Source: an uncultured Psychrobacter sp.
Lineage (GTDB): Bacteria > Pseudomonadota > Gammaproteobacteria > Pseudomonadales > Moraxellaceae
Direction of reading: 5' to 3'
DNA: 64,000 nucleotides
Assembly: GCF_947488565.1 (NCBI RefSeq)
Contig: NZ_CANKZC010000003.1
Coordinates: 450,701 to 514,700 of the forward strand
The position numbers and the translations under genes are program-made. Under the pieces are notes generated by a model. That model was not told where the DNA came from. It saw nothing but the letters and a program-made list of their open reading frames with translations, and did no database searches. Shown here one piece after another: positions 2,853-47,251 of the stretch. Positions within the stretch are counted from its first letter, which is position 1. The number at the start of each line of letters is the position of its first letter.

Positions 2853-3114
2853 ATGGTTTGACTAGAGATTGGCTTCGTTTGTCCGTCCCATGCCTTTCAA
2901 CTCGTATAGTTTTTTTGCACTTTTGGCATCCTTAAAAAGCTGTTTTGACACAACTTCGATTTGGACGATTATGCATCTATTTTTAGATTGCCCTCTCCTT
3001 TAAATTGGGTGCTGAACTTCCTATATAATGTGAGCCATCTCGCTGACGATAATCCATTCAATTTAGTCTTTTTCTTAGCAAAAAAGGCTTTTTACTAGGT
3101 GAAAGTGGTACTTT

Positions 3115-4107
3115 ATGTTTAATACATCCTCGACTCGTTTAAATAAATACATCAGCGAAAGCGGTATTTGCTCCAGGCGAGACGCTGACCGCTTTATTGA
3201 ACAAGGTAATGTCTACCTCAATGGTAAGCGTGCTCAAGTAGGCGATCAGGTGGTTACTGGAGATACGGTAAAAGTTAACGGACAGCTCATCGAGCCGCGG
3301 GAGGCAGATGATTTTGTCTTTATTGTATTGAATAAGCCAGTGGGCATTGTGAGCACTACTGAAAGCTCGGAGAAAAGTAACATTGTCGATTTTGTCAGAC
3401 ATGGAGTACGTATTTTTCCGATTGGTCGTTTGGATAAAGATTCTCAAGGTTTAATCTTTTTGACCAACAATGGCGACCTAGTGAACAAGGTATTACGTGC
3501 GGGTAATAATCATGAAAAAGAGTATTTGGTGACGGTTAATAAACCGATCACCGATAGTTTTATTGAGGGTTTAGCAGGCGGTGTGCCTATTTTGGGCACG
3601 ATGACCAAAAAATGCCCGGTAACTAAGGTGGCACCCACCGTATTTAACATTACGCTAGTACAGGGGTTAAACCGTCAAATTCGCCGGATGTGTGAGCATT
3701 TTGGTTATGAAGTCGTGAAGCTTGAACGTACACGGATTATGAACGTGACCCTTAAGGGTCTTCCAGTTGGAGATTGGCGAGATTTAACCCCAAAGGAGAT
3801 GTCTGTTTTACTTAACTCTATAGAAGATTCTTCTTCGCAAGACAAGAATGCGGCTAAGAAATCTCGCAATACACCAAGAAAAAACGCTCGTACTAATAGC
3901 TCGTCAAAATCAAAAGCGTCTTCTAAATCAGCAAGCGCGGCAAAGGGGAGTAGTAAACACCCTAAAGACGGTGCTAGAAAACCAAGGGGTTCTAAAGGTG
4001 GGCGTCATTCTGGTCATGATAAGAAGGCTGGAGGCAATGGTAAACCTGCTACAAACGGTAAGCGTCCTGCAAAAGGCCGAGGGTCTAAGCGGTCTTCAAA
4101 ACGATAG
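3115..4107 (+). CDS. rluF: 23S rRNA pseudouridine(2604) synthase
   Basis: Isomerises U2604 in 23S rRNA. The N-terminal S4 RNA-binding domain begins [19 protein letters not shown] (residues about 8-26). The RsuA/RluB/E/F catalytic core contains [10 protein letters not shown] with the catalytic Asp near residue 105, and later [18 protein letters not shown]. These blocks are close to RluF. The catalytic part ends near residue 240. About 90 further residues are almost entirely Lys, Arg, Ser, Gly, Asn and Ala, a long basic tail predicted to be disordered and RNA-binding. The start ATG at 3115 follows AGGTGAAAG. Monocistronic. Confidence 0.92.
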
Positions 4108-4228
4108 CTCAATGTGTAATGGTCAGATAATAATTTTTGATAAAGTAGCGCCTACAAGTGAGTTTAGCGACCAAGGTAAGTAGTGATATAATTCCCCGAT
4201 AATGAATATTTTATAAAGGCTTTACATT

Positions 4229-4507
4229 ATGGCTCGTACCGCTAGCGCATTACATATTTTAGTAAAAGATAAAGAGTTGGCGGAGGATATTATCGCCAAG
4301 CTTAAAAAAGGTGCGCATTTTGATGTGCTCGCTAAAAAACACTCAACCTGCCCGTCAGCTAAAAAAGGCGGTAACTTAGGCGAGTTTAAAAAAGGTCAAA
4401 TGGTGCCAGCATTCGATAAAGTCTGCTTCAACGGCGAACTATTTACTCCGCATTTAGTAAAAACCAAATTTGGTTGGCATGTGGTTAAAGTGCTTTATAG
4501 GACGTAA
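4229..4507 (+). CDS. ppiC: Peptidyl-prolyl cis-trans isomerase, parvulin type
   Basis: A 92-residue single-domain cytoplasmic parvulin. Recognisable family segments are [10 protein letters not shown] at the N-terminus, [19 protein letters not shown] in the middle, and FGWHVVKV at the C-terminus; the two His residues sit where parvulins place their active-site histidines. The length equals that of E. coli PpiC. A hairpin terminator follows at 4543. This is the last clear core-genome gene before the island boundary. Confidence 0.93.
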
Positions 4508-4542
4508 GCGTTAGATTCTGTATTTAATAGACGATGTATAAG

Positions 4543-4574
4543 AAAAGCCAGATAACTTGAGTTGTCTGGCTTTT
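4543..4574. terminator. Rho-independent terminator after ppiC
   Basis: A near-perfect stem AAAAGCCAGA(T)AACT / TTGTCTGGCTTTT with a short TGAG loop, with A-rich and T-rich flanks so it can work in both directions. It lies 36 bases after the ppiC stop. Confidence 0.85.
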
Positions 4575-4821
4575 CTTATGGTGAATACTTATCTACCTGC
4601 CAAAAGTTGTGCTCACATATAACATTGTCTAAATAGGCAAAGCATTTAGAAATCGTCTCAAACTGGGTTTTCTATATTTAGAATGGACTATGGTGATAGT
4701 TGACTCTAATAGTACTATAACTTTAACGGTTGGAACGAGCTTTTAGTTGAGTAGACAAACTTAACTATATCCAATAACCTATTTTGATAATTCCGCTACA
4801 TCCCCCGAAAAACAGACAAAA

Positions 4822-4860
4822 AAAGCCTCACTGCTCGTATAAAGAGTAGTGAGGCTTTCT
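4822..4860. terminator. Rho-independent terminator, likely bidirectional
   Basis: A 15-base stem, AAAGCCTCACTGCTC pairing with GAGTAGTGAGGCTTT, with a 7-base loop and T-rich tail. It sits eight bases from the tRNA-Gly fragment. It may originally have terminated a transcript that ended with that tRNA, or shields the island from the core genes. Confidence 0.8.
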
Positions 4861-4867
4861 TAATATT

Positions 4868-4910
4868 TGGAGCGGGATAAGAGATACCCCAACCTTGGCA
4901 AGGCTCGCGG
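4868..4910 (-). other. Degraded 3' half of tRNA-Gly(GCC); candidate attachment-site scar
   Basis: Read on the minus strand, this stretch carries the anticodon arm CCTTGCCAAGG with GCC anticodon, then TTGGGGT, and ends in the acceptor 3' strand and tail CCCGCTCCA of bacterial tRNA-Gly(GCC). About 13 bases of the T-arm, including the GTTCGA loop, are missing, and there is no 5' half (no D-arm or 5' acceptor strand), so it is not functional. A 3' tRNA fragment next to recombinase genes is what integration into a tRNA gene leaves behind. The intact tRNA-Gly would be expected at the other end of the island, outside the window. Confidence 0.7.
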
Positions 4911-4946
4911 ACTAAAATTATAGAAATGTATTTTAATAGATTATAG

Positions 4947-4985
4947 GCTACACCATATGATATACATACGGTGTAGCTTTTTTTA
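4947..4985 (+). terminator. Rho-independent terminator hairpin
   Basis: A 13-base stem with one mismatch, GCTACACCATATG against CATACGGTGTAGC, 5-base loop, followed by a run of seven Ts. It lies between the tRNA-Gly fragment and the recombinase operon. Orientation by the T-run is plus. The rest of 4508-5190 holds no gene I can support. Confidence 0.8.
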
Positions 4986-5190
4986 TTATCTCAATGTATA
5001 GTGTAAAAAAGAACAATATTACTTATACCACACGTTTATAGTCACCATGAATTTATGGTATTTTGACACCGACTAAAAACTTGTTAAATCATATTTTACT
5101 CTCCCCTAGCAGAATTATCCAATGTCTATACGTGATATTTCGGATTCTAAAGCAAGCTACTTTATATGAGTTACAAGCTAAAGGTGCATT

Positions 5191-5742
5191 ATGAAAACAA
5201 GTAACAACCTACCCAAGTCTAGTACTCAATACGCCCGTCTATCCTCTAAAGATTTACTAAGTTTGTATATACACCCTGAAGCTAAAACAGCATATAAACT
5301 CTATGTAGAATATTTTCCAATAGACTACATAGTTTTAACTGAGAATCAGACAATACACTTTGATGTTTTCTACGATCGAATGAACTTCTATTTTTATAAT
5401 AATTTTTCAGCACAATTGGTAATGGCGAATAGTACTGATGTCTATGTTAAGAAGTTGCAGCCGACTATAAGCTCAATAAACCTAGAGTCATGGAAATATG
5501 TTTTGGAAGAGTTTTTAAACCTTAATCCTGTAAATATTGATATCTATAACCAATTAAAGGTTCAGATGCCAGAAGGTATTCAGCGCAAGCTATTTGGTAA
5601 GCTGATGACGATTGAAGATGTTTGCCGAAGAAAAGGTATCTCTAGACATCATTTTGATTATCAACAGGCAAAACAAAAATGCTCAGTCTTCAAGATGCCT
5701 AGCTTTGACGAGTTGATACAAAGGAATGTAAATGGAGATTGA
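5191..5742 (+). CDS. Small first protein of a three-gene recombinase operon
   Basis: A 183-residue protein with no catalytic motif that I recognise. It is basic near the C-terminus, with a possible helix-turn-helix-like stretch around residues 140-165 (EDVCRRKGISRHHFDYQQAK), suggesting a DNA-binding accessory or excisionase-like role. The ATG has AAAGGTG seven bases upstream. It overlaps the next gene by 11 bases, so it is translationally coupled to the two tyrosine recombinases. Mobile modules with a small protein plus two large recombinases are known in several forms (Tn554-like trios, RIT elements, the gamma-mobile-trio). I cannot say which this belongs to. Confidence 0.6.
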   Translation: MKTSNNLPKSSTQYARLSSKDLLSLYIHPEAKTAYKLYVEYFPIDYIVLTENQTIHFDVFYDRMNFYFYNNFSAQLVMANSTDVYVKKLQPTISSINLESWKYVLEEFLNLNPVNIDIYNQLKVQMPEGIQRKLFGKLMTIEDVCRRKGISRHHFDYQQAKQKCSVFKMPSFDELIQRNVNGD

Positions 5743-7966
5743 TATTGAGCATGCTACTGATGGACTCATTCCTAATGTACTCGATAACCACCAAAGCGTT
5801 AGGAAATACTTTCTAACTGTGGCTGCATTGTCAGGCCAGGGTTTTATGAGTTTATCTTTACCAGAGACAGAGAAGGATTTTGTTTTATCAAAAATAGAAC
5901 TTAAAGCCATTTATAAGAGTTGTACTGGTAGATTAACAAACGATCATTTCAGAGTAACAACATTTATAGGTTCAACGTATCATCTTGAAGATTTAGATAT
6001 CAGCAATCCAGCACCAGAGTGGCTTTGGATATCCAAACTATGTCAATTACTACTATACTGTTCAGATCGTAAATTAATGAACAGAATTACTGAAATAACT
6101 ACTTTTGCACGTTTGTGGATAGTACAAGGTAGTTCTTATCATAATTTATGGCAAGAGTGTGTAGAGCTACAATCTAAAGATATAGCTACTACATTCGAAA
6201 ATATTGATGCATATAAGCAACATCTCGACGAGATTAATAGTCCTGATCTTAATCAGTTTGCTAAAGTGCATAGAGCATTAAAATTTGTGCTGCATAACAA
6301 AAATCGTATCGAGCGGACTTCCACAAATGGTCGTAAAAGTAGGGTTACGCGGCGGGTTGATGAGGAAAAAATTGAGTACGTTGTGTTTAATGATGTCGAC
6401 GATGATAGCGATGAGTTAATTAGTGTCACCGAGTTTTTAAAAACTGATAATGATATTGATGTCGTGCGCGAGAAATTAGATATTGGATTACCAGATTTTA
6501 CGTTACTCAAGCAAACATCACTACAAGCGCATGAAAAGTATTCTCCGCAACAGATGTACCATCGTACGCGCTCAAAGCTGCAGCATGCCAATAAGAACGA
6601 ACGTCTTATAGGCAGTAATGTCAGGATTCTACCTTTATTCGCGTTACAAAATATTTTTGCGTATCTATGGCAGCTTTTTGAGGGATTATCATCTAGTCAT
6701 GATAGAGATAAAAAGAGAGTGGTTAGTTATTTACTACTGTCAATGTTAACTGGGAGGTCAGTTGTCCAGTTAATTGAGGATGTAACAGGTAACAATAAGC
6801 AGTATATTAATTTAAATCGTCGGAACAATAGCTATCATTTAAATATCATCCTAGACATCACACCTCTTAGACTGCGTACTCAAGGTATCCAGAAAGTATT
6901 AGCCAATCGTTTGCTTGAATGTGACATAAGTCTTCCTGAGCAACTGGGTGTGTTTTTAGCCTATAAAGGCGATATTAATAAAGAGATTTTGTATGAAGTT
7001 ATAAACGAAACTCGTGATGCCCTAAAGCTACCATATCTGTCACTGGCCCGTATTGAGAAAGGCTTATACAGTATTCTTATTCATCATGTCTCTAATAGTC
7101 AGATTGCTAGTATCATTACAGGTCGAAATGAACGTAAACGAGCCGATATATGGTATAGCTCTAACAGTATTGATAACATTCGAGCTGTTTATCAACGAGC
7201 CATTACACTTATCAGTCAAAAAACGACATATGACAATGACTACCTAAATCTAGTTTCCAATATTTTTAATTATAAAATCGGTAGTCAAAATTGCCCTGAT
7301 TATGCAATCGTCATTAATTTTATTGACCTATTACACCAAAAAGTAGAGGCAACGACTGATTATATTGAAAAATTTAATGCGTATAGCATTTGGCTTTGGC
7401 ATATCAGCTTACTTTTAACTTCAGTGCGGGCAGTTGAGGGTGCACCAGGTTATTTTGATCAATTTAATTTAGAACTAGGGCTTATTTGGATCTCTGACAA
7501 AGAAGAGCGAGCAACGGCGTCGAGTCAAAGATATGTGCCTCTATGTCCATTCTTAATTGAGGCAATCAACCGATATATAGATTTTTTAAAAAGCTTCTCG
7601 TCTCTTTTTTGTCGTTTAGACATGCGCATTCAACATTGGGTTGACGAGGTAATGAAATCTGAGCGACCACTGATTAACGTGTTTAATAAAAAAGGTGAGC
7701 TAGAATCAATTCGTCCAGTACTGGTGAGAAATGAAATTCATAAAAACTTTAAGTTCAAAGAGGATTGGACAAGGCATGTTGGGCAGCGTTATCTGCATGA
7801 GCAGAACGTAAATGAGTCGATGATACTCTCTGTATTTGGTCATGAGATGATGGGGCAGGAGTCTTGGCGAAAGAATTCATCGATAAGCATCGGTGACATT
7901 TTGGACTTGCGTCCAACTTATCAAGCACTTGCAGATAAGCTTGAGATAAGACAGGTGCAAGTATGA
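5732..7966 (+). CDS. Large tyrosine recombinase-like protein (744 aa), middle gene of the trio
   Basis: The C-terminal third resembles a tyrosine recombinase catalytic domain. A first-arginine box SVRAVEGAPGY lies near residue 565, with a lysine-containing turn WISDKEERA about 25 residues later. A second box, WTRHVGQRYL, is near residue 680, and FGHEMMGQE near 702. A clear catalytic tyrosine in the usual place after the GH box is not obvious; the best candidate is in PTYQAL near 728. The first 450 residues show no known domain. It overlaps its neighbours by 11 and 4 bases. It could be an active recombinase or a catalytically weakened partner of the next protein. Confidence 0.65.
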   Translation: MEIDIEHATDGLIPNVLDNHQSVRKYFLTVAALSGQGFMSLSLPETEKDFVLSKIELKAIYKSCTGRLTNDHFRVTTFIGSTYHLEDLDISNPAPEWLWISKLCQLLLYCSDRKLMNRITEITTFARLWIVQGSSYHNLWQECVELQSKDIATTFENIDAYKQHLDEINSPDLNQFAKVHRALKFVLHNKNRIERTSTNGRKSRVTRRVDEEKIEYVVFNDVDDDSDELISVTEFLKTDNDIDVVREKLDIGLPDFTLLKQTSLQAHEKYSPQQMYHRTRSKLQHANKNERLIGSNVRILPLFALQNIFAYLWQLFEGLSSSHDRDKKRVVSYLLLSMLTGRSVVQLIEDVTGNNKQYINLNRRNNSYHLNIILDITPLRLRTQGIQKVLANRLLECDISLPEQLGVFLAYKGDINKEILYEVINETRDALKLPYLSLARIEKGLYSILIHHVSNSQIASIITGRNERKRADIWYSSNSIDNIRAVYQRAITLISQKTTYDNDYLNLVSNIFNYKIGSQNCPDYAIVINFIDLLHQKVEATTDYIEKFNAYSIWLWHISLLLTSVRAVEGAPGYFDQFNLELGLIWISDKEERATASSQRYVPLCPFLIEAINRYIDFLKSFSSLFCRLDMRIQHWVDEVMKSERPLINVFNKKGELESIRPVLVRNEIHKNFKFKEDWTRHVGQRYLHEQNVNESMILSVFGHEMMGQESWRKNSSISIGDILDLRPTYQALADKLEIRQVQV

Positions 7967-10900
7967 GTGTTAAAAAACAGTCAGATGATGAATTGTTCGG
8001 CTATAAACGTCGTGAGCAGAGACGTAAAGAGCAAAAAAAAGATATTTTAGTAGAAGCTGAATTTATATGTCAAAAGTTTTGGGAGAGCTTTCTTAAAAAT
8101 ATTGAATCAGAACATTCTACGGTTAATGAGACATCTATTTACCAACTCTATGAAGATATTTACAAAGAGTTTGAAGAAAGCCAATATATTTCTGCGGGTC
8201 TAATGCCAATAGCATTAACCAAGCGTCTTTTCTTTTTTAATAATATTAACCGTGAGCGTAAACGTAAGGGGCTAGAGCCACTGCCAGCTCCAACGGTTGC
8301 TTATCAGCCTCAACGCCCAAAAAACACAGCTGTAAGGGATGCTTTTTTTTATCTGCCTAAACTGCAAAGTATAATGAAGGAAGCTGTGCAAACATGGCAA
8401 ACAAAGAACAGTTTTACCCTTATTGATGGACTAGCTTGGTTAATGTTTTCATTGTTGATGCATGGACGCATACATTCTGTTGATGTATTAAATGCTGTTT
8501 ATGTGCATATCACCACTAAAAAGAAGTTACATATATTGGCTGATAACATGGTCTATATTCCATTAGATATCGTGTCTAAAACTTATGGTAATCAGATAGT
8601 CGATATTGACGGTTCTGATGAAAAAATTATTTCTTATTCAAAGTGGGTATTCATAGACGATATCAGTCGCTTGTGGTTAGTTAAAGTTAATCAGCTATTA
8701 GAAGACAAGACATCGAAGTTACCAAGCTTTCATAGCTGTATCAGGCAGTTGGGTAAGCTGACCGAAGAAAAGTTTAAACTGGATACCTTAGAGAAAACAG
8801 ATTTTTTTAGATATTTGAATATTTACTGGCAGACATTGTCGAATGTACACATAGATCAGCAGCTAGTTGAATTGCTTGTCCACCATGATACCCATACCGC
8901 GATTAGTTCAAACGACTTGCAAGCTTACTTAGGGGCTCCTCAGCAATCAGATAGCACTACTATCAATAATGAGTACATCACGTTTGATAGGCTTAATAAG
9001 CCTACTCAAACTTTGCAGGATGAAGTTGCCGATATAGAGGATAGTGTAAGTAAAGATAAGGCTCATAAAAACGTATTAAAAGATATTCGCCGCGCCCTTA
9101 TGGGCAGTAGGAAAAAAGTTAAAGAGCAGCTCGAGGCGTTGATTAAAATTCACGAAGGTTATAATGAGCAAAGTTTAATTCTCTGGATGCTTGATTTAAA
9201 TGCTATTAATAAAGCTACCTCTACTTTATTAAGATATTTGACAGAAGTGGGTGAAGCATTTTTATATGGTACTCGTGATGAAGATATTACAGATTATCAA
9301 GTGTATCAATATGAGTTTTTATACGATAGTATCATCGCCAAGAAAAATACTCTCAATATAGGTTATACCCAGACGGTATTGAACTCACTACATCAAAGCT
9401 TAAAAAAACATTTTGGTGCACCGCATGTGCATCTTCAGCGTGAAAATGATCCGAAAATAGTTTCTAGCAGTTTAATATCAGCTGACTTATATAAACATAT
9501 TCTACGAAGTGTCAGTAATCAGATCGCATTATCTTCATACAATAAAAGCATGATGAAAGTGATCTTTACTTTGCTCTATCGCACTGGCTTAAGAATCAAT
9601 GAGCTGTTAGGTATTCGGTTAACAGATAGTGAATATGACCCATATACTTATAATGAGATCAATCTTATTATTCGTTCAAATAGCTATAGAGCCCTAAAAT
9701 CAGATGATGGCACTCGCAGAATTACTTTATCAGTATTGTTAAAACCAGATGAGTTCAAAGGGTTTCAGTCTTATTTTATAGAACGAAATCGTCATAAAAA
9801 AGAAGGCAAATACTTATTCGCACTTGAAGGACTGTCGACTCCATTAGATCGAGGTAGTGTAGATAGAGTGTTTAAAGAGGTTATTGGCCCTCAATACCAG
9901 CATTTAGTATTGCATAGCTTTCGCCATAATGCTTTATCTAATATGGCAGTAATACTTAGATGTCGTCAAGAAGTTTTGGACATTTTTACTGATTATAACG
10001 AGGAAGAAGCGCAGTGTATTAAAGAGGACTTATTAGGAAAAGTGCGTATTAATTCTGGTCATCATTGGGATGCCTTAATGGAATTTGCAGGGCATGCCGA
10101 CCTAGATACTACTTTTAGCTCTTATATACATACGGTAGATATAATCGCAGCACATCTATTGGATCAGGCATATATGGAGCTACCTGTTGATGTGGTTACG
10201 AAACTTACGAATAAAGCACGACGAAGTTTTAATCAACATAATCCACAAGCTTTAGATTTCGAAAAGAATAGCGTGGATTTGACAAAAATCCGTAAGTTTA
10301 TCAATCGTGAGTTGAATATCAAAAAAATTGATAATAGTAAGCAGCATTCTTTTACATCAAATAAAGAAGAGGATTATATTAATACTTCCGTTATTTTTGG
10401 GAAGTATGCACGCTGGCAGATTGAAGAGTTTTTGAGTGAGATTGAGGCAGGTAAGACAGTTTCTGAAGCCGCCCAACATCATTTTATCTATGAAGATGCA
10501 GTTGCGTTATACAATCGAGCGCTGCTTCTAGCAGCTGATAAGAATAGCAAGGCTCATTATAAATTAATATCTAAGTACAAACAGCCAAAGTCAGGGCATT
10601 TATTGGTAGCACCAACACTACCAACCATCGCTAAAGAGCAGCAACTCGTGCAGGAATGTTTTATTAAATTAGAAAATCTATATCTCAAACAGCCGATGAA
10701 AGAGCATGTTCAACGTATGCTTTCAATATTCTATAAAAAATCTAACTCATCACATAGCGACCTTCGTTTTACATTCAAGGAAAAAAAGATATTTTATGAC
10801 TATTTAAATATTGTCATAAAAATACTACCTGCTAGATACTGGCGTATAAATATTAGTTCCTATCAAATGAAGCGAACAACAAAGCCTAAGAAAGGGGAGT

Positions 10901-11157
10901 TAAAATATCAGAAAATAATGAATGAAGAAAAACAGCTAGAAATAACGAAAGAGTTCAAAGCTGACTATCGTCAATTATCAAAAAATCTCACTAATGACGA
11001 TTATTATAGTGGTTATTCATTGTCAGTAATTAACCCTAAAGAGAATGAGATAGTGAACTCTACTAATAATAAAGCTAGCCGTGCATCGTCATCACTGATG
11101 AAGTATGTGATGCATTTACTGCTGATTGTGGACATAAATTTTGAATTAGTTAGTTAA
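7963..11157 (+). CDS. Giant tyrosine recombinase/integrase (1064 aa), third gene of the trio
   Basis: Catalytic residues of a tyrosine recombinase are visible between residues 540 and 725: TGLRINELLGIR (first Arg box), LHSFRH (His-x-x-Arg box) near 650, and GHADLDTTFSSYIHT with the final His and the nucleophilic Tyr near 710-721. Typical integrases are 300-450 residues, so this one has about 500 extra residues before and 340 after the catalytic core; both extensions are unassigned. The start codon overlaps the previous stop (ATGA). Together with its two partners and the tRNA-Gly scar it is the likely mobility module of the island. Confidence 0.8.
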   Translation: MSVKKQSDDELFGYKRREQRRKEQKKDILVEAEFICQKFWESFLKNIESEHSTVNETSIYQLYEDIYKEFEESQYISAGLMPIALTKRLFFFNNINRERKRKGLEPLPAPTVAYQPQRPKNTAVRDAFFYLPKLQSIMKEAVQTWQTKNSFTLIDGLAWLMFSLLMHGRIHSVDVLNAVYVHITTKKKLHILADNMVYIPLDIVSKTYGNQIVDIDGSDEKIISYSKWVFIDDISRLWLVKVNQLLEDKTSKLPSFHSCIRQLGKLTEEKFKLDTLEKTDFFRYLNIYWQTLSNVHIDQQLVELLVHHDTHTAISSNDLQAYLGAPQQSDSTTINNEYITFDRLNKPTQTLQDEVADIEDSVSKDKAHKNVLKDIRRALMGSRKKVKEQLEALIKIHEGYNEQSLILWMLDLNAINKATSTLLRYLTEVGEAFLYGTRDEDITDYQVYQYEFLYDSIIAKKNTLNIGYTQTVLNSLHQSLKKHFGAPHVHLQRENDPKIVSSSLISADLYKHILRSVSNQIALSSYNKSMMKVIFTLLYRTGLRINELLGIRLTDSEYDPYTYNEINLIIRSNSYRALKSDDGTRRITLSVLLKPDEFKGFQSYFIERNRHKKEGKYLFALEGLSTPLDRGSVDRVFKEVIGPQYQHLVLHSFRHNALSNMAVILRCRQEVLDIFTDYNEEEAQCIKEDLLGKVRINSGHHWDALMEFAGHADLDTTFSSYIHTVDIIAAHLLDQAYMELPVDVVTKLTNKARRSFNQHNPQALDFEKNSVDLTKIRKFINRELNIKKIDNSKQHSFTSNKEEDYINTSVIFGKYARWQIEEFLSEIEAGKTVSEAAQHHFIYEDAVALYNRALLLAADKNSKAHYKLISKYKQPKSGHLLVAPTLPTIAKEQQLVQECFIKLENLYLKQPMKEHVQRMLSIFYKKSNSSHSDLRFTFKEKKIFYDYLNIVIKILPARYWRINISSYQMKRTTKPKKGELKYQKIMNEEKQLEITKEFKADYRQLSKNLTNDDYYSGYSLSVINPKENEIVNSTNNKASRASSSLMKYVMHLLLIVDINFELVS

Positions 11158-11840: not shown

Positions 11841-12250
11841 CTAAAACCTCAGTGGAATTTTTATACGCTTCTCACCTTATAAATCAGGGAGTGTTTCAAA
11901 CTGATGGGTGCGAACGAATTGGTCAAATACCAGTTTTTGCGACATTGTGGACAACGTACTATTGCTAAACAAGTCGATGTGAGTTCTAGGTTTGTACCGG
12001 TACCGCATATTCATGCTCCTATTGTTTTTTATGAAAGGGATTATCATAATTGGCAAATTCAATATTGTGTTACTAGTCTGAATCAGCTTTGCCATGTAAA
12101 TAACATAAACATCAATAACTTAGATAAAAACTGACATGAGAGCATTAAATATCGGTTGAGAAATCTAGATAAAAGTGCATAATTACATTTCTGTATGTTT
12201 CATGTAAGATTATTATAATTCTTTTATACAGTGCTAACAGAGTAAGGTTA

Positions 12251-13157
12251 ATGGAAATAAAAAAACATAAACGTCTCGCGTATCGTTTATCTGACATTAT
12301 CATCCGACTAAACGCTGGTGAGCGCTTAGATATTTTTGAGTTGGCAGATACTTATAAGGTTTCTACTCGCACATTGAAACGAGATTTTCAGAATCGTCTG
12401 ACATTTTTAGATTTCAGCGAATCAGGCCCACAATTTTATCGTCTTGCCACCAGAAATATCGGCTGTTTTAAGCTAGTTGACATCAAACGTTTTGCTAGCT
12501 TTGCCAGTATTCAAGACCTACTACCACAAATTGATCGTCAGTGCTTTCAGCAAAAACTTAATCAAAGTGTTTTAGTTAAAGGGTTTGCATATGAAGATAT
12601 TAGCAGTCGAAGTAAAGACTTTGAAGCTATCAGCGAGGCTATTGCCAATAGTCAATATATTAATTTTGACTATCAAAAAATTGGCAAACAGAATTCTGCT
12701 AATTATAGCAAGAACCATTATTTAGAGCCTTATCACTTACTCAATAAAAATGGTATTTGGTATGTAGTGGGTAGACGTAAATACCAAACACGCACTTTTT
12801 GCTTCACGCAAATCAGCAATCTAGTAATCACTAATGAGTGCTTCGAATGTGACGAACAAATTAAGGCTGACTTAATCAGCACTGACAGCTTGTTCTTTGA
12901 TAATCATATCAATGAGATCGTATTACAAGTTAATGCTGAGGTAGCTGGTTATTTATTTTGAGCGTCGTGATCTACTACCCAATCAAGAACTAATACGCAA
13001 ACTGGATAGTGGTAATTTGCTATTAGCCTGTAAAAATGTGCACCCAAGAGAAGTTATGCCTATCGTCCAGTATTGGTTACCACATATTCATATCATTAGT
13101 CCGAGTGAAGTTCAGGAGCAGATGACAAAAGTCTTAAAGAATTACTTATTTATATAA
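12251..13157 (+). pseudogene. WYL-domain transcriptional regulator interrupted by a +1 frameshift
   Basis: The N-terminal winged HTH (YRLSDIIIRLNAGERLDIFELADTYKVSTRTLKRDF) and WYL domain (YLEPYHLLNKNGIWYVVGRR) are clear in the first 236 codons, which stop at 12959-12961. The missing C-terminus continues in the next frame from 12954, starting YFERRDLLPNQELI, and runs to a stop at 13157, ending with a typical WYL-C pattern. The junction GGTTATTTATTTTGAG needs one T fewer, so a one-base insertion in a T-rich stretch is the simplest cause. It may be an inactivating mutation or slippage. It stands just upstream of and co-oriented with the double-GTPase operon, whose transcription it probably controlled. 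Confidence 0.8.
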
Positions 13158-13258
13158 TTAAATACATATAATTAAAATTTTTATTGTTTATAGACTAAAA
13201 CGTATATTTATTCAATGAGTAAGAACAATTTTTTGAATTGTAAAATGGAGCGTAAAAA

Positions 13259-15355
13259 ATGAATGCTGAATATTTAAATTTATTAGAAAGTAACTTGAGA
13301 CAGGTTATGAACATTGCTTGTGATCTTGATAGTTGTAGCAAAGACACTCTGAGTAAAATTGTTGAAACTTATCGAAAAATTCGTCTGAGTCGATTGTTAG
13401 CTAATGAATACTTCGTAGCCATTGGAGGTACACAAGGAGCAGGAAAAACCACTTTGCTAAGCACCATCTACAATGCTGAGGATTGGCTTACTTCTAATAG
13501 TGGACGAGGGGAGCAAGTTCCTGTATTTGTTTATGAGAAGCAAGGCATTACAGAAATAACGGCTAGTAAGATTGTTTTTAACACAAAAACAAAAAAAGAA
13601 TCCGAGATTGAGTGTACCAAAGAAGAGTTTAAAAAGACTATCTCTCAGTGGGAATGCGATAGTAAAGATGATGAGCGTGTCGTTTACGTAAAGTTATTTG
13701 TACCTATAGTATTTGATATCCCCTTTGGTTGGGTGTTATTACCAGGTTATGAGGTGGAAACACATAAAAACTATGCTTGGCAACAGCTTATGCGCTATGT
13801 TATGACCCATGCTCTAGGCGTTATCCTTGTGACTAGTGAAGAAAGACTAGCACATGTGCAAACCGATATTACTGATGACTTAGCAGAAAGCTTAGAATTA
13901 CGTCAACCCGTTATTGCTATTTCTCGTTCAGAAAACTATCGTGATAATGAAGAAAAGGTAAGTCAGCTCACTGAACGAGCGAGAGAAGTGTTTAAGGTTT
14001 CAGACGATAGAGTCATATTTACAGGAACAGATCTGCATAACTGGAAAGATAATTTTGAAAAAGCTGTGATACCTTTATTAGATAAAAACTCTGCTGTTGA
14101 AAATAAAAAAATTCATACTTTACTAGAGGTTATTAATAATGACCTATCAGAAGTCATAAACGATCTTGAAGGATTAGCCCTAAATGCTGAGATTAGCGAT
14201 AGCTCTCAAAACAGCTTAGTAAACAAGCTTATAGATAAGTTTGATAAATCTGCTAATAGATACAAACAAGAATTATCAAGTGAGCTTAATAGGAAAACTG
14301 CTAATTTAGTTACTATAGCGGTCAACCAAGCTAAGAAAGAATACAGTGATGAAGAAGTAGGTTTTATAAATAATACCAAAATAGGGATTAAGCGACTTAC
14401 ACTTAACGGTACAAAGGTTGAAGACAAACGTATAGAAAGAGTTAGAGGTAAGTTCACTTCTGAAAAAATTATGGGTTCGAACTTAAGGGCTATTAATGAT
14501 ACTGCTCAAAATAAGTTGAACTTGAAGTTAAGTGAGCATACATCTAACAACCTATTAGGTTACTCTGATAAAAAAATGGATAAGTATGAAGAGTCTCCTA
14601 AAGACTATCATGAATCAGTTAACGCGGGACTTAGTATATTATTAAGGAAAGAAGAGCCATCTCAAAGTAGTAGCAATAAAAATCAAAAAGAAATTATTGA
14701 AAAAGCCTTAGAAGTATTACCTGCTGTAGCAATGGAGTACTCTCGCATTGTTCAAATAGCTTATTTAGCGTCAACTGAAGATATTGATGGTTTTAAGAAC
14801 AAGCTTGAAAGTAGAAATCTCGACACAAAAGACTTACAAGCATTGATGACAAATGTGATTAGAGATACTGATACGACTGCTGAAGGTGTCAAAACAGTTA
14901 TGGGTATCGTTGGGTCATTAACAGGTTTAGACATGGTGGATGGTAAACTTGATGGAAAAATTAACTTTTCAGATAGCTCATCAAATAGTACTGATGGTTT
15001 ACAAACTGCTGCTTTGTTAGCTACTAGAGTAGCTGGTTTAGCAGTGGCAGTTGGTGCTGTAGCATTTACTGCATATCAAGTGTCTAACTCCGTTAATCTA
15101 ACAGATAAATCTAATAAGAACTTTATTGAATTATATGCACAAGATTTAGGACGTAAAAACAACGCTATGGTGATTAGTGAATATGATGAGCACATGCAAA
15201 AGATATCTCAATACCTACGTTCAAATTTAGAGCAAATGTATGGTATAGGTTCAACAGACACTCAACATCATCTAATGGTTGCACTTAAATATTTAAAAAA
15301 TGCTCATAAAGACGTCCGGAGAGTGTTGAATAATGAACAAATTAACTTGGTCTGA
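13259..15355 (+). CDS. Dynamin-like large GTPase A
   Basis: A 698-residue protein. The P-loop is GGTQGAGKTTL near residues 55-65. The switch-II/G3 position reads LLPGYE near 160, with no catalytic Asp before PG. The G4 position, near 220, is ISRSEN rather than T/NKxD, so nucleotide specificity may be altered. A hydrophobic helix pair follows near residues 575-605 (ALLATRVAGLAVAVGAVAFTAY), giving a membrane-insertion element like the paddle of bacterial dynamin-like proteins. Long helical regions lie between. The ATG at 13259 follows AATGGAGCG. It overlaps the next GTPase gene by 23 bases. Bacterial dynamin-like proteins often act as obligate pairs on membranes and some protect against phage. 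Confidence 0.75.
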   Translation: MNAEYLNLLESNLRQVMNIACDLDSCSKDTLSKIVETYRKIRLSRLLANEYFVAIGGTQGAGKTTLLSTIYNAEDWLTSNSGRGEQVPVFVYEKQGITEITASKIVFNTKTKKESEIECTKEEFKKTISQWECDSKDDERVVYVKLFVPIVFDIPFGWVLLPGYEVETHKNYAWQQLMRYVMTHALGVILVTSEERLAHVQTDITDDLAESLELRQPVIAISRSENYRDNEEKVSQLTERAREVFKVSDDRVIFTGTDLHNWKDNFEKAVIPLLDKNSAVENKKIHTLLEVINNDLSEVINDLEGLALNAEISDSSQNSLVNKLIDKFDKSANRYKQELSSELNRKTANLVTIAVNQAKKEYSDEEVGFINNTKIGIKRLTLNGTKVEDKRIERVRGKFTSEKIMGSNLRAINDTAQNKLNLKLSEHTSNNLLGYSDKKMDKYEESPKDYHESVNAGLSILLRKEEPSQSSSNKNQKEIIEKALEVLPAVAMEYSRIVQIAYLASTEDIDGFKNKLESRNLDTKDLQALMTNVIRDTDTTAEGVKTVMGIVGSLTGLDMVDGKLDGKINFSDSSSNSTDGLQTAALLATRVAGLAVAVGAVAFTAYQVSNSVNLTDKSNKNFIELYAQDLGRKNNAMVISEYDEHMQKISQYLRSNLEQMYGIGSTDTQHHLMVALKYLKNAHKDVRRVLNNEQINLV

Positions 15356-17246
15356 AGTTTATCAACATAGATTTGAGTGGGCTAAATCAGCTCACTCAAA
15401 GTTTATGCTCAATTTTGATAACGACCTATATTCAACACAGGAAATTAAAGATCAGATATTTGTAGCCGTTTATGGTCCTTCACAAGTGGGCAAAACATCC
15501 TTAATTCTTGAGCTAATAGGTGTACTTCCAGAACACCATGGTAAGGTTCAAAATGTTCTTAGAGCGAACAGAGACTATGGAAAGTCTGCTACAGCGACAG
15601 TAGTTCGATATCGAACGTCTATTAACAACTATTGGTATATAAATGAAGTTAACAGTAGTAGTAAAAATAGAAAAAAATTAAATAATGATGAAGCAAAGAA
15701 AGAGCTAGCAGAAATTCGTTCCAAAATGGAAGATATGGGAGGTCGGTATAAAATAGAAGAAATTGATATTAGTATTCCTGAAGTATATATAAGTAATAGT
15801 AGAATTAAAAATAAAGATATTGTCATTCGAGATTTACCTGGCGTTAAAGCAGAAAATGATAACGAGCGTGAGTTCGTCTCTAAAGTAATCAAGGATAAAA
15901 TCGAAAAATCTGATTTAGTACTATTAGTCACTACTATTGATAATATGGGTTTAGTAGTACAACCTGAAAACTTAGAAATAGATAATTTACAAAAATGGAA
16001 GGTCAACCCTCAAAGATTTAAGATTATTTTTACTAGATTTTATTCAGATGATTCAAGTCTAAAACTCTGTACTCAACTTTATGATAGCAGAGGGTCTATA
16101 GATATAGACGATGTTCGTACTCATATCCAAAAGCAAATACATACTTTGGATAGTGATTTTCGATCGGATGTAAAAAGTCAGCTTTACGCATTAGAAGTAG
16201 GAGATAGTTGGTACAAGCTTCTAACAGATAATAAAGAAGAGCAACAACCTCTAATAGACACTAGAAAAGTCTTTTTCGATGAGCTAAAGGAGGTTATTTA
16301 CTCTGCTAGTAATCCTATCATTAGACTTTGTCATGGATATCAAATTGGTGAAATTTCTAAAAATTTTAAGCTAGAGAAAAATCAAGAAGTTAATATCACT
16401 TTAGCTAATTTAGAAAAAGAGATTTCAAACATAAATGAAGAAATAAGAGAAAATAATAATATTATCGATAACTACCGAAAATCTATTAACGAAGAGATTG
16501 AGACTACTAATAGCCAAATAAAAGAAATACAAAACTTATATCACAAATGTAATAACGTGTTTTCAGAAGCAAGCATCGAAGAGTTATATGAAACAGTAAA
16601 AGAATCTGAACAAAAAAATACTACTGTATTAGCAGGATATTTACTGCAAAATATTGAAAAATTTAAAATTAAATGGGACGAAATAAAGCGAGAATGTATA
16701 GGTAGTATTGATATTAGTCAGTTTCCATATTTGAATGATATTGATGATGTGAATTCTCACTTAAAGAACTATAATTTTAAAACATATTTTTTTAATGATA
16801 AATTCAATAATGATTTAAATAAAATAAAAGCGATTCTAGGTAATCAATTGTTAACTATTAGAGATTCATTAAAAGAACATTTTTCAGGGTATCTTGATAA
16901 AATTAAAATAGAAATAAACTTAAGGGTTAGTAAATATAGAAATTTTATTGCAAAGTTGGAAAAAAGAAAAATTTATTTAGTAAAAACAAAATATATTTTA
17001 ATACAAGATAAATCAAGTCTAGAAGATAAGCTCAAAATTTTTAATTATAGTCGTGATTTGGAAATAGAACATAGCGAAAAATTCTCAGTATTCGTTAATA
17101 ACGAATTTAAAGTAGCACTTAAAAAATTATCAGGTTATGCCAAAAAAGAAACAGATAATATAACAATGCTATATTGGATAATGCTAATCAGACAATTGAA
17201 TATTGACTTTAAAGTAGTAGAGGGAAAAAATGAGAGAAAGAAATGA
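15333..17246 (+). CDS. Dynamin-like GTPase B
   Basis: A 637-residue partner GTPase. The P-loop GPSQVGKTSL is near residues 48-57 and the G3 motif RDLPGVKAEN near 168 retains D-x-P-G. The G4 position reads IIFTRFYSDDS near 231, a variant of TKxD. A long acidic/lysine-rich coiled coil covers roughly residues 350-420, followed by further predicted helical bundle. No membrane segment is obvious, so it probably relies on GTPase A for membrane contact. It overlaps both neighbours, by 23 and 17 bases. Complementary tandem GTPases recall dynamin-like pairs such as LeoA/LeoBC. Base composition is noticeably AT-richer than the core genes. Confidence 0.75.
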   Translation: MNKLTWSEVYQHRFEWAKSAHSKFMLNFDNDLYSTQEIKDQIFVAVYGPSQVGKTSLILELIGVLPEHHGKVQNVLRANRDYGKSATATVVRYRTSINNYWYINEVNSSSKNRKKLNNDEAKKELAEIRSKMEDMGGRYKIEEIDISIPEVYISNSRIKNKDIVIRDLPGVKAENDNEREFVSKVIKDKIEKSDLVLLVTTIDNMGLVVQPENLEIDNLQKWKVNPQRFKIIFTRFYSDDSSLKLCTQLYDSRGSIDIDDVRTHIQKQIHTLDSDFRSDVKSQLYALEVGDSWYKLLTDNKEEQQPLIDTRKVFFDELKEVIYSASNPIIRLCHGYQIGEISKNFKLEKNQEVNITLANLEKEISNINEEIRENNNIIDNYRKSINEEIETTNSQIKEIQNLYHKCNNVFSEASIEELYETVKESEQKNTTVLAGYLLQNIEKFKIKWDEIKRECIGSIDISQFPYLNDIDDVNSHLKNYNFKTYFFNDKFNNDLNKIKAILGNQLLTIRDSLKEHFSGYLDKIKIEINLRVSKYRNFIAKLEKRKIYLVKTKYILIQDKSSLEDKLKIFNYSRDLEIEHSEKFSVFVNNEFKVALKKLSGYAKKETDNITMLYWIMLIRQLNIDFKVVEGKNERKK

Positions 17247-18228
17247 ATCCGAAGAGTCTTTTGATATTTTAGTCCAAGATATATTCGGTACGATGATTGA
17301 AGAAAAAAACTCTGACCAAAAAGATGATATAGTTGGCGATATCAGTATTCATATAAATAATACTAAACAAGAAATTAAAAATAATAGTATTTTGCTAATT
17401 AATAAAATAGTTGAGCTTGAGGATTTTGTAAAAAATGATGTAGGCTTAGAGGATACAGTAAAAACCATAAAAAAAATTGATAATAAATCTGAAATTTTAT
17501 TAGATGTTATTAATGAGCATAGTAATGATACAAAAACCAATCTCACAGACTTAAGGTCTTTCGTAGAAGCTAGTAATAGTGAAAAAACTAATGACATTAC
17601 CGAGGCCTTAGTAAAACACAACCAAGAATTAACCAAAAATAATGAGCTATTGATTCACTTGTTACGATCTTCAGATTCGAGCCATAAGAAAACAGCTAAA
17701 GAAATATTGCAGGCTATTTCTGATGTCAGTCAGTTACTAAACAATAATCTTAATACTTTATTAAGTAATATAGATGAGAACCGTCAGTTTACTGATGATA
17801 CATATCAGAAATTTATAGAGGTTTTCCAGACAGAGAAAGAAATATTACTAGAACACTCTTCTAATTTAGAAAAATTATTTTCTGAAAAAAATAATTATAA
17901 TATTAGTAAGTTATTAGAAGAAATTTCCATTATCAATAAATTGGTTTATAGTAAATATGACTCTTTGCTACATCAAATAGATAAAAACAGTCAAATAATA
18001 GATGAAAAAACCACTTCAATTAACAAGACTATTGAAGCTGAATATGAGCAATTAACCTTTGATCTAAAGTCTACCGTGGATAAAGCACTTATTAAGTCAA
18101 ATAGTAATTATGACATTGCACAGAATAAACTGAATAAAATATCCTTATCAAATAAAATTTTAATTACTTTAAACTGCTTTTGTTTAATAGCAATTATAGT
18201 CGTTATCTTTTTAATGTATAGTTCTTAA
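17230..18228 (+). CDS. Coiled-coil protein with C-terminal membrane anchor
   Basis: A 332-residue protein made of heptad-like acidic/Asn-rich helices. One hydrophobic segment lies at the very C-terminus (about residues 305-328, ILITLNCFCLIAIIVVIFLM), so it is tail-anchored with the coiled coil in the cytoplasm. It has no enzymatic motif. The repetitive SNL/LLxxI-D patterns resemble methyl-accepting or tethering proteins only in composition. It overlaps GTPase B by 17 bases and so belongs to the same transcript. A plausible job is to tether the GTPases to the membrane or sense envelope damage; this is inference. Confidence 0.65.
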   Translation: MRERNESEESFDILVQDIFGTMIEEKNSDQKDDIVGDISIHINNTKQEIKNNSILLINKIVELEDFVKNDVGLEDTVKTIKKIDNKSEILLDVINEHSNDTKTNLTDLRSFVEASNSEKTNDITEALVKHNQELTKNNELLIHLLRSSDSSHKKTAKEILQAISDVSQLLNNNLNTLLSNIDENRQFTDDTYQKFIEVFQTEKEILLEHSSNLEKLFSEKNNYNISKLLEEISIINKLVYSKYDSLLHQIDKNSQIIDEKTTSINKTIEAEYEQLTFDLKSTVDKALIKSNSNYDIAQNKLNKISLSNKILITLNCFCLIAIIVVIFLMYSS

Positions 18229-18317
18229 AACGTAAATTTTAACTAAATATATTTTTATCGCTGCTTAAATGTTCTGAAAGTACCTTATAAAGCTCTATAC
18301 AGACTTGGAACCTAATT

Positions 18318-19049
18318 ATGAAAAATACTGATATTTATGACAGTAACCTTAATACTGTTTTGGATAAAGCATCTAACGAAGATCTTGAGCCATTAGTTGA
18401 ATATCTCAGTAAGAAATTTTCTTGTGATCTAGTAGTAGATACAGTCTACAAAGAGAACTCCCCTAATCATTCAAAATATGCAGATTTAATTGCAAAAGAA
18501 ATAAGGGATATGGGAGGGAATTCATTCATGAATATGTTTCGTGGCTTCGAAGGGCCGTCATACCATGAAATTGTATGTGACGTAGCCTCTAAGTTAAAAG
18601 CTAATTATAATAAAAATGATAGTATAGAAAGTATTGAAGACGCGATATTTGAAGTTATTCTAGCTAAAGCTCTGGAAAAAATGACAGATGAAGAAAAACG
18701 ATTATTGTTAAAGGAAATGGGAGGGAAGTCCAATGTTAATATAGCACTTCTCTCTACGAAAAGTTTTATTCAACTATTTAGATCCGGAGGTTTTGGGTCA
18801 TATAAGATGACGCTAATCATTGCTAACCAAATGTCTAAGATGTTACTAGGCAGAGGGCTTATGTTTGCAACTAATACCGCTTTGGTTAAGTCAGCATCAT
18901 TACTTACAGGTCCTTTTGCTTTGGCAGTAACTGGCGTATGGACTGCTATAGATATGTCTGGACCTGCTTACAAAGTAACTATACCATGCGTTATACATGT
19001 TGCCATGCTCAGAAAAAAAGTTAATCGAAAACGATTTAAGTTTTGGTAA
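18318..19049 (+). CDS. YaaW/UPF0174-family protein with DUF3944-like N-terminus
   Basis: A 243-residue protein. The N-terminus DSNLNTVLDKASNEDLEPLV resembles the short DUF3944 motif. The middle and C-terminus (MGGKSNVNIAL, then a Gly/Ala-rich hydrophobic stretch TALVKSASLLTGPFALAVTGVWTAIDMSGPAYKVTIPC) match the YaaW family of uncharacterised proteins. The hydrophobic region may insert in a membrane. The ATG at 18318 follows TTGGAACC. It is 89 bases downstream of the coiled-coil gene with no terminator between, so probably co-transcribed with the GTPases. Function unknown. Confidence 0.7.
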   Translation: MKNTDIYDSNLNTVLDKASNEDLEPLVEYLSKKFSCDLVVDTVYKENSPNHSKYADLIAKEIRDMGGNSFMNMFRGFEGPSYHEIVCDVASKLKANYNKNDSIESIEDAIFEVILAKALEKMTDEEKRLLLKEMGGKSNVNIALLSTKSFIQLFRSGGFGSYKMTLIIANQMSKMLLGRGLMFATNTALVKSASLLTGPFALAVTGVWTAIDMSGPAYKVTIPCVIHVAMLRKKVNRKRFKFW

Positions 19050-19435
19050 TAAAAAGCAGAATATTTAACTTCGAGTATTTACGATGGTAACTATCTAATA
19101 GTAGAGTTGTTTTCGGAACGTCTAAATGACTAATGCCTGGAGGGCTACTCCTATCACTAGTATTATTTTAGGTGAAGCACTTTTAAGTTCCTACAGCTAC
19201 ACTACTGATTCACACTATTAGACAAGTCTATATTCAGGACTCATAACATATTTTCAAAGAAATATTTACTACAAAAGAAGTAAACTAATCAAGCCGAGCT
19301 GTATAATCTTTATAATTTAGGTTTTTTTACATCTTAGATGAACACATGAAGTGCAATATCAAAGAGCAGGTGAAAAAGAGGCCTATATGCGCTAGCATCA
19401 AAGCTACTATCCACCGCCAAAGTGAGATTGCAACC

Positions 19436-19864
19436 ATGAGCTATACACATCTAAGCTTAGGGGAACGATATCAGATTCATGCCCTTAGAGGGGCACGACA
19501 TAGTATTAAATTTATAGCAGGGGCGTTAGACAGAAGTTCAAGCACCATATCAAGAGAGCTTAGGCGCAATAAAAGCCTACGAGGTTACCGAGCAAAGCAT
19601 GCAGACAACACAGCTAAAGCGAGGCGAGCAAATAACGCCTTCACCATCATTTTTAACGTCTGGGACTGGGTAGTGACTAAGCTTAAACTGCAATGGAGTC
19701 CTGAGCAAATAGCAGGCATTCATAGTGGAGTCAGTCACATGAGTATCTATCGTTACTTACGGACTGATAAGAGGCAAGGCGGCACGTTATGGCAATATTT
19801 AAGACGCAAAGCCAAACCCTATCGTCAAAGGCTTACCGCTATAAGAACTATCATCATAGTTTAA
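19436..19864 (+). pseudogene. IS30-family transposase, C-terminally truncated
   Basis: The protein beginning MSYTHLSLGERYQIHAL has the IS30-type N-terminal HTH (IKFIAGALDRSSSTISRELRRN) and the WSPEQIAG segment followed by SIYRYL, all standard for this family. After about 142 residues it ends in unrelated residues and a stop; the DDE catalytic domain (roughly 180 further residues) is absent. The truncation point lies 10 bases from the 3' end of the neighbouring regulator gene, implying a deletion or insertion join. The true start is 19436; the longer frame from 19346 has no family match. The preceding 19050-19435 holds nothing else I can support. Confidence 0.85.
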
Positions 19865-19873
19865 AAACTTGAC

Positions 19874-20572
19874 TTACTCATTCAATAATCTAGCTAGTGA
19901 GTCCAAATCATTTTCTTGCAGATTTGATGCAAGGTCGTCTAAAAGTTGTTTTTCCTCATCAAATACAATTTTAAGATCTTTAGCATCCCTAATTCCGAGC
20001 TTGGAATTATTAGTCTTCTCCAGATTCTTACGCTGTTCGTATTTAATTCTTAGACTCACCATGAGGCTCTTAAACGGTGATGTAGGGAAGATATATTTTT
20101 TTGGAAAAGCACGAAAATTATTATCGCCTTGCTCAGTGTGTATTGTTGATTCTGAATTTGGTCCATCTTGAGAAACAAGTTTATCCCAACTACCTATTTG
20201 TGATAACCCAGTGACAAAATTTGATTTCACAAATAACGGCTCAAGCCTTTCATATAGGTCATTGGGTATCACGCCCTTCAGCTCAGTTTCAACGAGCCTT
20301 AGTGCAATAGCTTGTGACAGGCTTAATTGATTTGATTTGGTATTACTCAGTTTTTGCCATCGCCAACTATAAGGCTTGTCATCCTTACAGCATTCCACGG
20401 GTAATATATCTTCGAGCATTGTTAAGTCTCGTTGAATTGATCGCAGCTTAGTATCGATACCCTGTGTCGCTAAATGCTCTTGTATTTGTCTAGTAGAGAC
20501 GTACTTACCTTCTAATAACAACTGAATAATCAGTAACTGTCGCTTAATGATATCGGTAGAGTTATTGTTCAC
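19874..20572 (-). CDS. WYL-type HTH transcriptional regulator lacking a canonical WYL core
   Basis: A 232-residue protein. Residues 8-70 form the winged HTH seen in WYL regulators: IIKRQLLIIQLLLEGKYVSTRQIQEHL, then KLRSIQRDLTMLED. The region after residue 90 keeps the LSQAIALRLVETEL helix typical of the linker before WYL domains, but the WYL motif itself is not visible and the C-terminus is Leu/Asp/Glu-rich. A GTG start at 20572 is inferred. It is divergent from the HEPN gene, and two inverted repeats lie between them. Regulators of this kind often silence defence genes until infection, so it probably represses itself and the HEPN gene. Confidence 0.7.
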   Translation of the reverse strand: MNNNSTDIIKRQLLIIQLLLEGKYVSTRQIQEHLATQGIDTKLRSIQRDLTMLEDILPVECCKDDKPYSWRWQKLSNTKSNQLSLSQAIALRLVETELKGVIPNDLYERLEPLFVKSNFVTGLSQIGSWDKLVSQDGPNSESTIHTEQGDNNFRAFPKKYIFPTSPFKSLMVSLRIKYEQRKNLEKTNNSKLGIRDAKDLKIVFDEEKQLLDDLASNLQENDLDSLARLLNE

Positions 20573-20786: not shown

Positions 20787-21473
20787 ATGGATGTAATAGT
20801 AAACGCTCTCAAAAAAAAGCATGCATATAACAAGCATAATGTTGGAGATGGCTTCTCATTACGCATTTATAGGGCTATAAGCTGGCTGGCTAAAGCCAAT
20901 GACTTAGCAAAAACTGAAGAGAGTGACTTGGCTTTTGTTACGCTTTGGATTAGCTTTAATGCCTTGTATGCTGATGAGTTACCGTTAAATCAAAGTAGAG
21001 GTGTATCTGATAAGTCTTCATTTAAGGATTTTATTAGAAAAATAGGTAAACATGATAAACAAGAAAGACTTTATGATTTAATTTGGAATCGTTATCCGCA
21101 GTCTATTCGCACGTTGTTGAATAATCAGTATGCTTTTACTGCATTCTGGCAATATCAAAACGGCACATTTAGTAAAAAAGCATGGGAAGAAGATTTTGAC
21201 AAAGACAAAAAGCAAGCATTAAAGTATTTGAGTGATAAAAACAACACTGATTTACTATTGACAATAGTATTCGAACGTCTCTATACCATACGCAATCAAA
21301 TAGTTCATGGCGGAGCAACTTATGCGAGCTCAGTTAATCGTAAACAAGTTAAGGACGCGGTTAATATTTTAGGAGACTTTTTGCCTTTAATTATAGATAT
21401 TATGATGAACCATCCTGAACAGGATTGGGGTAGGCCATTTTACCCGCCTGTTGATGAGGCGTCATTTGAATAG
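20787..21473 (+). CDS. ApeA-like HEPN-domain protein, candidate RNase effector
   Basis: A 228-residue protein. AFVTLWISFNALYADE near residue 55 and RLYTIRNQIVHGG near residue 170 are the paired helices of Apea-like HEPN proteins; RNQIVH is the R-x4-H catalytic motif of HEPN ribonucleases. The N-terminal RIYRAISWLAKAN is also typical of this type. The start ATG at 20787 has AAGGA eight bases upstream. HEPN proteins usually cleave RNA in defence or toxin systems. There is no MNT antitoxin beside it; its neighbours are a divergent HTH regulator and an FtsZ-C-like gene downstream. Confidence 0.7.
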   Translation: MDVIVNALKKKHAYNKHNVGDGFSLRIYRAISWLAKANDLAKTEESDLAFVTLWISFNALYADELPLNQSRGVSDKSSFKDFIRKIGKHDKQERLYDLIWNRYPQSIRTLLNNQYAFTAFWQYQNGTFSKKAWEEDFDKDKKQALKYLSDKNNTDLLLTIVFERLYTIRNQIVHGGATYASSVNRKQVKDAVNILGDFLPLIIDIMMNHPEQDWGRPFYPPVDEASFE

Positions 21474-31693: not shown

Positions 31694-31701
31694 TTTAAAT
31701 C

Positions 31702-47250: not shown

Positions 47251-47251
47251 A

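Follow-up and report, generated by a model that had tools for sequence, protein, structure and literature searches.

The closest described systems to the locus presented here are Juk (jumbo phage killer) and the bacterial dynamin-like proteins (DLPs). In Juk, the sensor is JukA and the effectors are diverse, including phospholipases and transcriptional regulators, according to extracts of a 2026 review (PMC13282480). The same extracts describe the pore-forming JukB as being recruited to the infection site by JukA, and JukA alone as protective in some instances. In an excerpt of another study (PMC12735699), jukAB did not protect against any of 15 phages, a result that the study's authors explain by the absence of an activating phage.

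As for the DLPs, excerpts of the relevant papers state that heterotypic tetramers formed by pairs of bacterial DLPs are capable of lipid binding and liposome tethering (PMC6104087), and that LeoA has been proposed by the LeoABC authors to require LeoBC for GTP binding (PMC4159319). Likewise in excerpt, DynA of Bacillus, a dynamin-like protein, delays phage lysis (PMC8844932), but dynamin genes carried by one mobile island showed no activity against the phages used (PMC12595487). A literature search, which the effector list of the original Juk paper (Cell 2025) fell outside, returned no described system with the composition reported below and no paper joining YaaW with dynamin; in the extracts retrieved, no link was drawn between jumbo phage killer and dynamin.

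Organization of the locus

The window—the whole stretch of 64,000 nucleotides of Psychrobacter DNA that was analysed—holds four ORFs on the forward strand at positions 13259–15355 (GTPase A, 698 aa), 15333–17246 (GTPase B, 637 aa), 17230–18228 (a coiled-coil protein, 332 aa), and 18318–19049 (JukA, 243 aa). ORF calling thus bears out an earlier note on this DNA, which had described four co-oriented genes, three of them overlapping: GTPase A and GTPase B overlap by 23 bases, GTPase B and the third gene by 17, and 89 bases separate the end of the third gene from the start of jukA. These ORFs are genes and not chance ORFs, because the same order is found in two other Psychrobacter with 81–88% DNA identity (blastn) and because the dN/dS values between the window and its relatives range from 0.13 to 0.37 (0.15–0.17 for GTPase A, 0.27 for GTPase B, 0.37 for the third gene, and 0.13–0.18 for the pieces of jukA). 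All four genes of the cassette are therefore under purifying selection.

The shared block (unstranded) extends from 11927 to 19333, with 81.2–87.6% identity (blastn) to Psychrobacter sp. GP33 (L003) and P. cibarius DSM 16327 (L002). The part in common with GP33 begins at 11947, and the part in common with P. cibarius reaches 18577, the contig of the latter ending just beyond. The GC content drops to about 0.26 over the genes for GTPase B and the coiled-coil protein. Terminator-like sites are as frequent as expected by chance (3 versus 3.3 expected), and ten proteins, among them those of the cassette, had no NCBIfam match above the cut-offs.

A regulator with a WYL domain had also been placed ahead of the operon. 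The gene is present on the forward strand at 12251–12961 (Pfam WYL 5.9e-10; PADLOC WYL 1.9e-20), but it is frame-damaged at its 3' end, where the last ~65 residues of its homologue match a different frame at 12954–13148. It is broken in GP33 too and open in P. cibarius, and its dN/dS was not computable.

The GTPase pair and the coiled-coil protein

GTPase B (15333–17246) is a dynamin-family protein with a dynamin-type G domain (Dynamin_N 1.3e-7) and a long helical region. All 26 of its Foldseek matches at E<=0.001 are structures of the dynamin superfamily, and the top two are titled 'An oligomerised bacterial dynamin pair'; we take both to be the Campylobacter entries (Cj-DLP1/2). The model behind this search is of middling quality (pLDDT 62.1, pTM 0.43), and the whole-chain TM-scores are low across the 26 matches (0.18–0.28). 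GTPase B is also the least conserved gene of the core between the window and P. cibarius, with 66% identity, compared to 85% for GTPase A and 76% for the third gene. Its identity is lowest (42–48%) at codons 401–560 (window 16533–17012), inside the long helical region.

GTPase A (13259–15355) is a P-loop protein whose P-loop is conserved among the aligned sequences, while the DxxG (G3) motif is replaced by LLPG in seven out of seven; a hydrophobic segment starts at residue 585, in the C-terminal half. No Pfam family matches it above the cut-off, and the affiliation of GTPase A to the dynamins is for this reason deduced, in contrast to that of GTPase B, so that one of the two dynamin-like GTPases of the earlier note stands firmly and the other provisionally. 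A match to the SEY1 profile (0.0068) and a profile comparison with GTPase B (probability 17.7%, E 0.0014) weakly support a dynamin identity, and GTPase A is probably a degenerate dynamin-like partner. The two genes are adjacent and overlapping, and would form a DLP pair if GTPase A is a dynamin. Its AlphaFold2 model, built from a four-sequence alignment, reached a pLDDT of 38.7 and a pTM of 0.29, and was therefore left out of the fold search. Neither GTPase had a PHROGs match at E<=0.001.

The third gene (17230–18228) encodes a coiled-coil protein with a single, strong hydrophobic segment at its C-terminus (residues 310–328), in agreement with the tail anchor proposed for it. Such an anchor is present in four of the five third ORFs checked, the fifth (L006) being part of a GTPase B. 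By BLAST, the third genes of Psychrobacter and of enterobacteria do not match each other. Two profile matches of this protein were discarded. The one to ZorA of Zorya (1.1e-4) covers profile positions 307–508 of 692, a helical part, and the MotA/ExbB-type membrane domain of ZorA was not found; the one to an HNH endonuclease family of PHROGs (1.8e-4) is limited to residues 166–238, again helical.

Distribution of the cassette

The cassette was identified at 12 loci, two of them damaged, from Psychrobacter, Enterobacteriaceae, Pseudomonas luteola, and Gluconobacter (the window, L002, L003, L005–L008, L020, L022, L023, L025, and L037; L019 duplicates L002). More relatives were detected than are counted here: 11 plasmid records contain a GTPase A relative, of which 4 are included, and 5 E. 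coli genomes match most of the query, of which 3 are included. The damaged loci are L006, where GTPase B lies in two ORFs, and L008, where GTPase A and the third gene are each in two pieces. What is conserved is the GTPase pair together with the third, coiled-coil gene; in the loci measured, these genes lie close together, separated by 1–3 bases or overlapping by 4–44. Downstream of the pair, eight of the nine loci without JukA have a third ORF (fragmented in L008), and no third gene was recognised after the GTPase pair of L006; the second ORF piece of that locus was considered for this role and rejected, as it matches GTPase B instead.

Relatives of GTPase A were found in 4 of 105 Psychrobacter genomes—in one of which, G743, the GTPase pair shows 50% and 42% identity—and in 11 of 72,556 plasmid records, from Klebsiella, Enterobacter, Gluconobacter, and Pseudomonas luteola, as well as in one contig of a viral collection (L037). 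A query made of GTPase B and the third gene matched 15 of 5,426 E. coli genomes, five of these matches spanning 80% or more of its length, while the ten others listed match only its last 12%. One of those ten, L024, has a left flank like that of L023 (ydeQ–ydeT plus a small gene), followed by about 360 bases of the end of the third gene and then by other genes, a layout as expected where the cassette was lost. In wider samples, the genome of the window itself was the only one matched, by GTPase A among 341 genomes of the order, by the GTPase A profile among 369 of the class (two candidates scored per genome in the rows listed), and by the GTPase B profile among 349 of the phylum; all these queries represent one branch of a diverse family.

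JukA and its relationship to the cassette

The fourth gene (18318–19049, forward strand) had been described as a YaaW protein of unknown function. It is JukA, the sensor of the published Juk system, and its function is therefore not unknown. Three PADLOC JukA models match it (3.3e-68, 6.8e-57, and 1.1e-25), the best of them, PDLC04111, over the full length (residues 3–237, model positions 3–240 of 250), and it also matches PHROG 13238 (2e-54) and PF03981, the YaaW/DUF3944 family (1.6e-5). The hydrophobic segment once ascribed to this protein was overstated, because no 19-residue window reaches a mean hydropathy of 1.5.

JukA-like genes occur in other contexts as well. PHROGs contains a JukA-like family (phrog_13238), and jukA relatives lie on plasmids amid phage genes, such as those for a repressor, portal, and head proteins (L010 6986–7738; L013 6974–7726). 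L039 (genome G076) carries two different jukA genes in tandem, about 1.6 kb apart (2375–5658).

Whether JukA is coupled to the trio or merely its neighbour is a nearly level choice. Under the second option, which is a serious one even if it falls somewhat short of even odds, the dynamin-pair cassette would be self-sufficient and JukA would stand alone, as two independent defence modules inherited together only through a shared island. The co-occurrence of the four genes elsewhere, which the earlier note had set as a test of its proposal, holds for 3 of the 12 cassette loci (the window, L002, and L003, all from Psychrobacter), where JukA and the WYL gene are both present, and fails for the other nine (L005–L008, L020, L022, L023, L025, and L037), which have neither in the stretch examined. 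Within the genus, some JukA is found in 3 of 4 genomes with GTPase A versus 2 of 101 without it (Fisher p 2e-4, with related genomes counted as independent), the exception being G743, which has no JukA match at E<=1e-8 genome-wide. The WYL-to-jukA block common to three Psychrobacter speaks against independence insofar as it is shared as a unit, and so does the lack of any jukA promoter of its own that stands out, promoter-like sites being at chance level (37 versus 37.9 expected).

Seen from the JukA side, a dynamin-like gene lies nearby in 1 of 21 other JukA loci, by a motif scan that would overlook proteins like GTPase A. Of the 22 loci examined in this way, L063 was dropped as it gave no JukA ORF; L065 and L012 were not included, and the 21 are partly redundant, since L058–L061 represent one genus. 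BLAST with GTPase A and GTPase B gave no match at these 21 loci, and the nearest JukA detected outside the genus (58%, L056) has different neighbours. The one exception, L011 (4656–7681, Acinetobacter pMsp11), carries a different gene, coding for an N-terminal HTH and a Dynamin_N domain, which is divergent to jukA with a DUF4258 gene between them, and is possibly a second association of dynamin and JukA. The rarity of dynamin-like genes at these loci favours independent modules, as do the 89-base gap before jukA and the reported protection by JukA alone (PMC13282480, in extract).

The history of the block points in the same direction. In GP33, jukA is broken into two frames; in P. cibarius, its two parts lie on separate contigs, as an assembly break at an insertion would produce. 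The core genes are intact reading frames in both genomes. The dS values are uneven across the block: between the window and P. cibarius, dS is 0.08 for jukA codons 1–86 and 0.46 for GTPase A; between the window and GP33, 0.49 for jukA codons 70–242 and 0.49 for GTPase A; and between P. cibarius and GP33, 0.01 for the third gene and 0.19 for GTPase A. The block has therefore recombined, and the difference between 0.08 and 0.46 suggests that jukA was exchanged apart from the core. The jukA dN/dS of 0.73 between GP33 and P. cibarius is in line with decay, over 52 codons that are too short to carry weight.

Proposed mechanism

The best reading is that the cassette represents a rare, mobile dynamin-pair defence unit, joined by JukA in one Psychrobacter lineage. 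It is tentatively proposed, with a probability of roughly 0.4, that this is a mobile phage-defence cassette with a three-gene membrane-remodelling core, in which JukA acts as the sensor and the dynamin pair as the Juk effector. GTPase B would supply nucleotide-driven assembly, and GTPase A would be its partner, degenerate in its active site and able to insert a segment into the membrane, so that both together may form the active unit; the tail-anchored coiled coil would tether the pair to the inner membrane. JukA, having joined this core, would sense an early step of phage infection and might recruit the dynamin pair to infection sites as it recruits JukB, and the pair would then tether or remodel the membrane at the infection site or that of the phage vesicle. 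The active A/B unit, the anchoring at the inner membrane, and the recruitment by JukA are all drawn by analogy with bacterial DLP pairs and LeoABC. We infer a defence activity, an A/B heterodimer, and an action on the membrane, and the working together of JukA and the trio is what we infer least firmly.

A more specific scheme is doubtful. In it, JukA would recruit and trigger a heterotypic dynamin pair, which is held by the tail-anchored coiled coil and acts on the membrane of the early infection vesicle of jumbo phages by constriction, tethering, or rupture. If true, it would represent a sensor-coupled bacterial antiviral dynamin, with a logic parallel to that of the animal Mx or GBP proteins. 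In any case, a known sensor of jumbo phages is here naturally linked to putative membrane-remodelling GTPases, and, if this linkage is functional, it would define a mechanical class of Juk effector and an immune role for bacterial dynamin pairs.

Genomic setting and alternative functions

The dynamin-like pair and its tail-anchored partner lie in a defence-rich setting, which is indirect evidence for a role in defence. The window holds two large ORFs of the PADLOC candidate families PDC-M16B (4.5e-102) and PDC-M16A (1.1e-86) at 29342–34635, and, at 41892–54286 and 59051–62290, type I restriction-modification genes interspersed with GmrSD-type proteins and followed by a ZorD gene. Elsewhere, in a PADLOC neighbour scan that covered L037 and L020, the gene after the cassette of L037 is of the GajA class of Gabija (4.1e-235), and the two genes before that of L020 encode a UvrD-type helicase and a DruE-like protein, as in Druantia. 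No JukB match appeared among the PADLOC hits of the neighbours, in a database (PADLOC-DB) that may lack a JukB model.

Three consecutive ORFs at 5191–11157 (183, 744, and 1064 aa), the last with a phage-integrase domain, possibly make up the island's integration module. Between jukA and a HEPN-like gene, the region 19346–20572 holds two further ORFs: one of 172 aa, which contains an HTH_38 domain and is probably a truncated IS30-type transposase, and one of 232 aa on the opposite strand, which weakly matches a WYL model. HEPN_RiboL-PSP-like genes are found 3' of the cassette in Psychrobacter (window 20787–21473; L003, that is GP33, 15085–15681, close behind jukA) and in Enterobacter/E. coli (L005 12669–13667; L022 12690–13685); those of the window and L005 score below the Pfam cut-off. 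BLAST found no match between the genes of Psychrobacter and those of the enterobacteria, and their link to the cassette may be due to chance.

This setting bears on the idea that the cassette does not serve immunity at all, being instead a membrane-maintenance or vesicle-release module on mobile islands, as proposed for LeoABC. Knockout of leoA or leoB in E. coli cut membrane-vesicle release by roughly half, according to an excerpt (PMC4159319), and the inactive dynamin genes of one mobile island cited above (PMC12595487) fit this idea too; nevertheless, the defence genes that adjoin L037 and L020 and occur in the window, the sporadic distribution of the cassette, and the presence of JukA alongside it in three genomes make such a role improbable. 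A divergent member of the known LeoA/LeoBC defence system is more improbable still: GTPase B has weak PADLOC matches to LeoA (5.7e-8) and LeoBC (1.1e-5) and a Foldseek match to LeoA (4aur, 1e-4), and GTPase A of L005 matches LeoBC at 2.9e-6, but the matched stretches are short (residues 161–201 of GTPase B for LeoA), GTPase A of the window matches no PADLOC family at E<=1, and a tail-anchored coiled-coil gene is not mentioned for LeoABC in the excerpt of PMC4159319.

Comparison with known systems

The phage-defence cassette proposed here resembles several described systems and differs from each in the respects given below. Like Cj-DLP1/2, it holds two adjacent genes for large GTPases, and the best structural matches of GTPase B are the bacterial dynamin pair entries; unlike that pair, GTPase A lacks the DxxG aspartate in all seven aligned sequences, and a third, tail-anchored gene is added. 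With LeoA/LeoBC (the Eleos system), it shares dynamin-like genes in tandem and weak profile matches, but neither GTPase has a full-length match to the PADLOC models. DynA of Bacillus subtilis, likened here by description, is also dynamin-like and reported to delay phage lysis (PMC8844932, in excerpt), but combines two DLPs fused in one chain (PMC4159319, in excerpt), whereas here two genes are accompanied by a third and by jukA. Finally, the likeness to Juk (JukA–JukB) consists in a full-length JukA by profile, a sensor that pairs with diverse effectors in extracts of the review (PMC13282480). The difference lies in the dynamin pair and tail-anchored coiled coil found upstream of jukA; the Juk effectors named in those extracts include phospholipases, transcriptional regulators, and JukB. 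Since its membrane genes also travel without JukA, this cassette looks like a variant built of known phage-defence parts.
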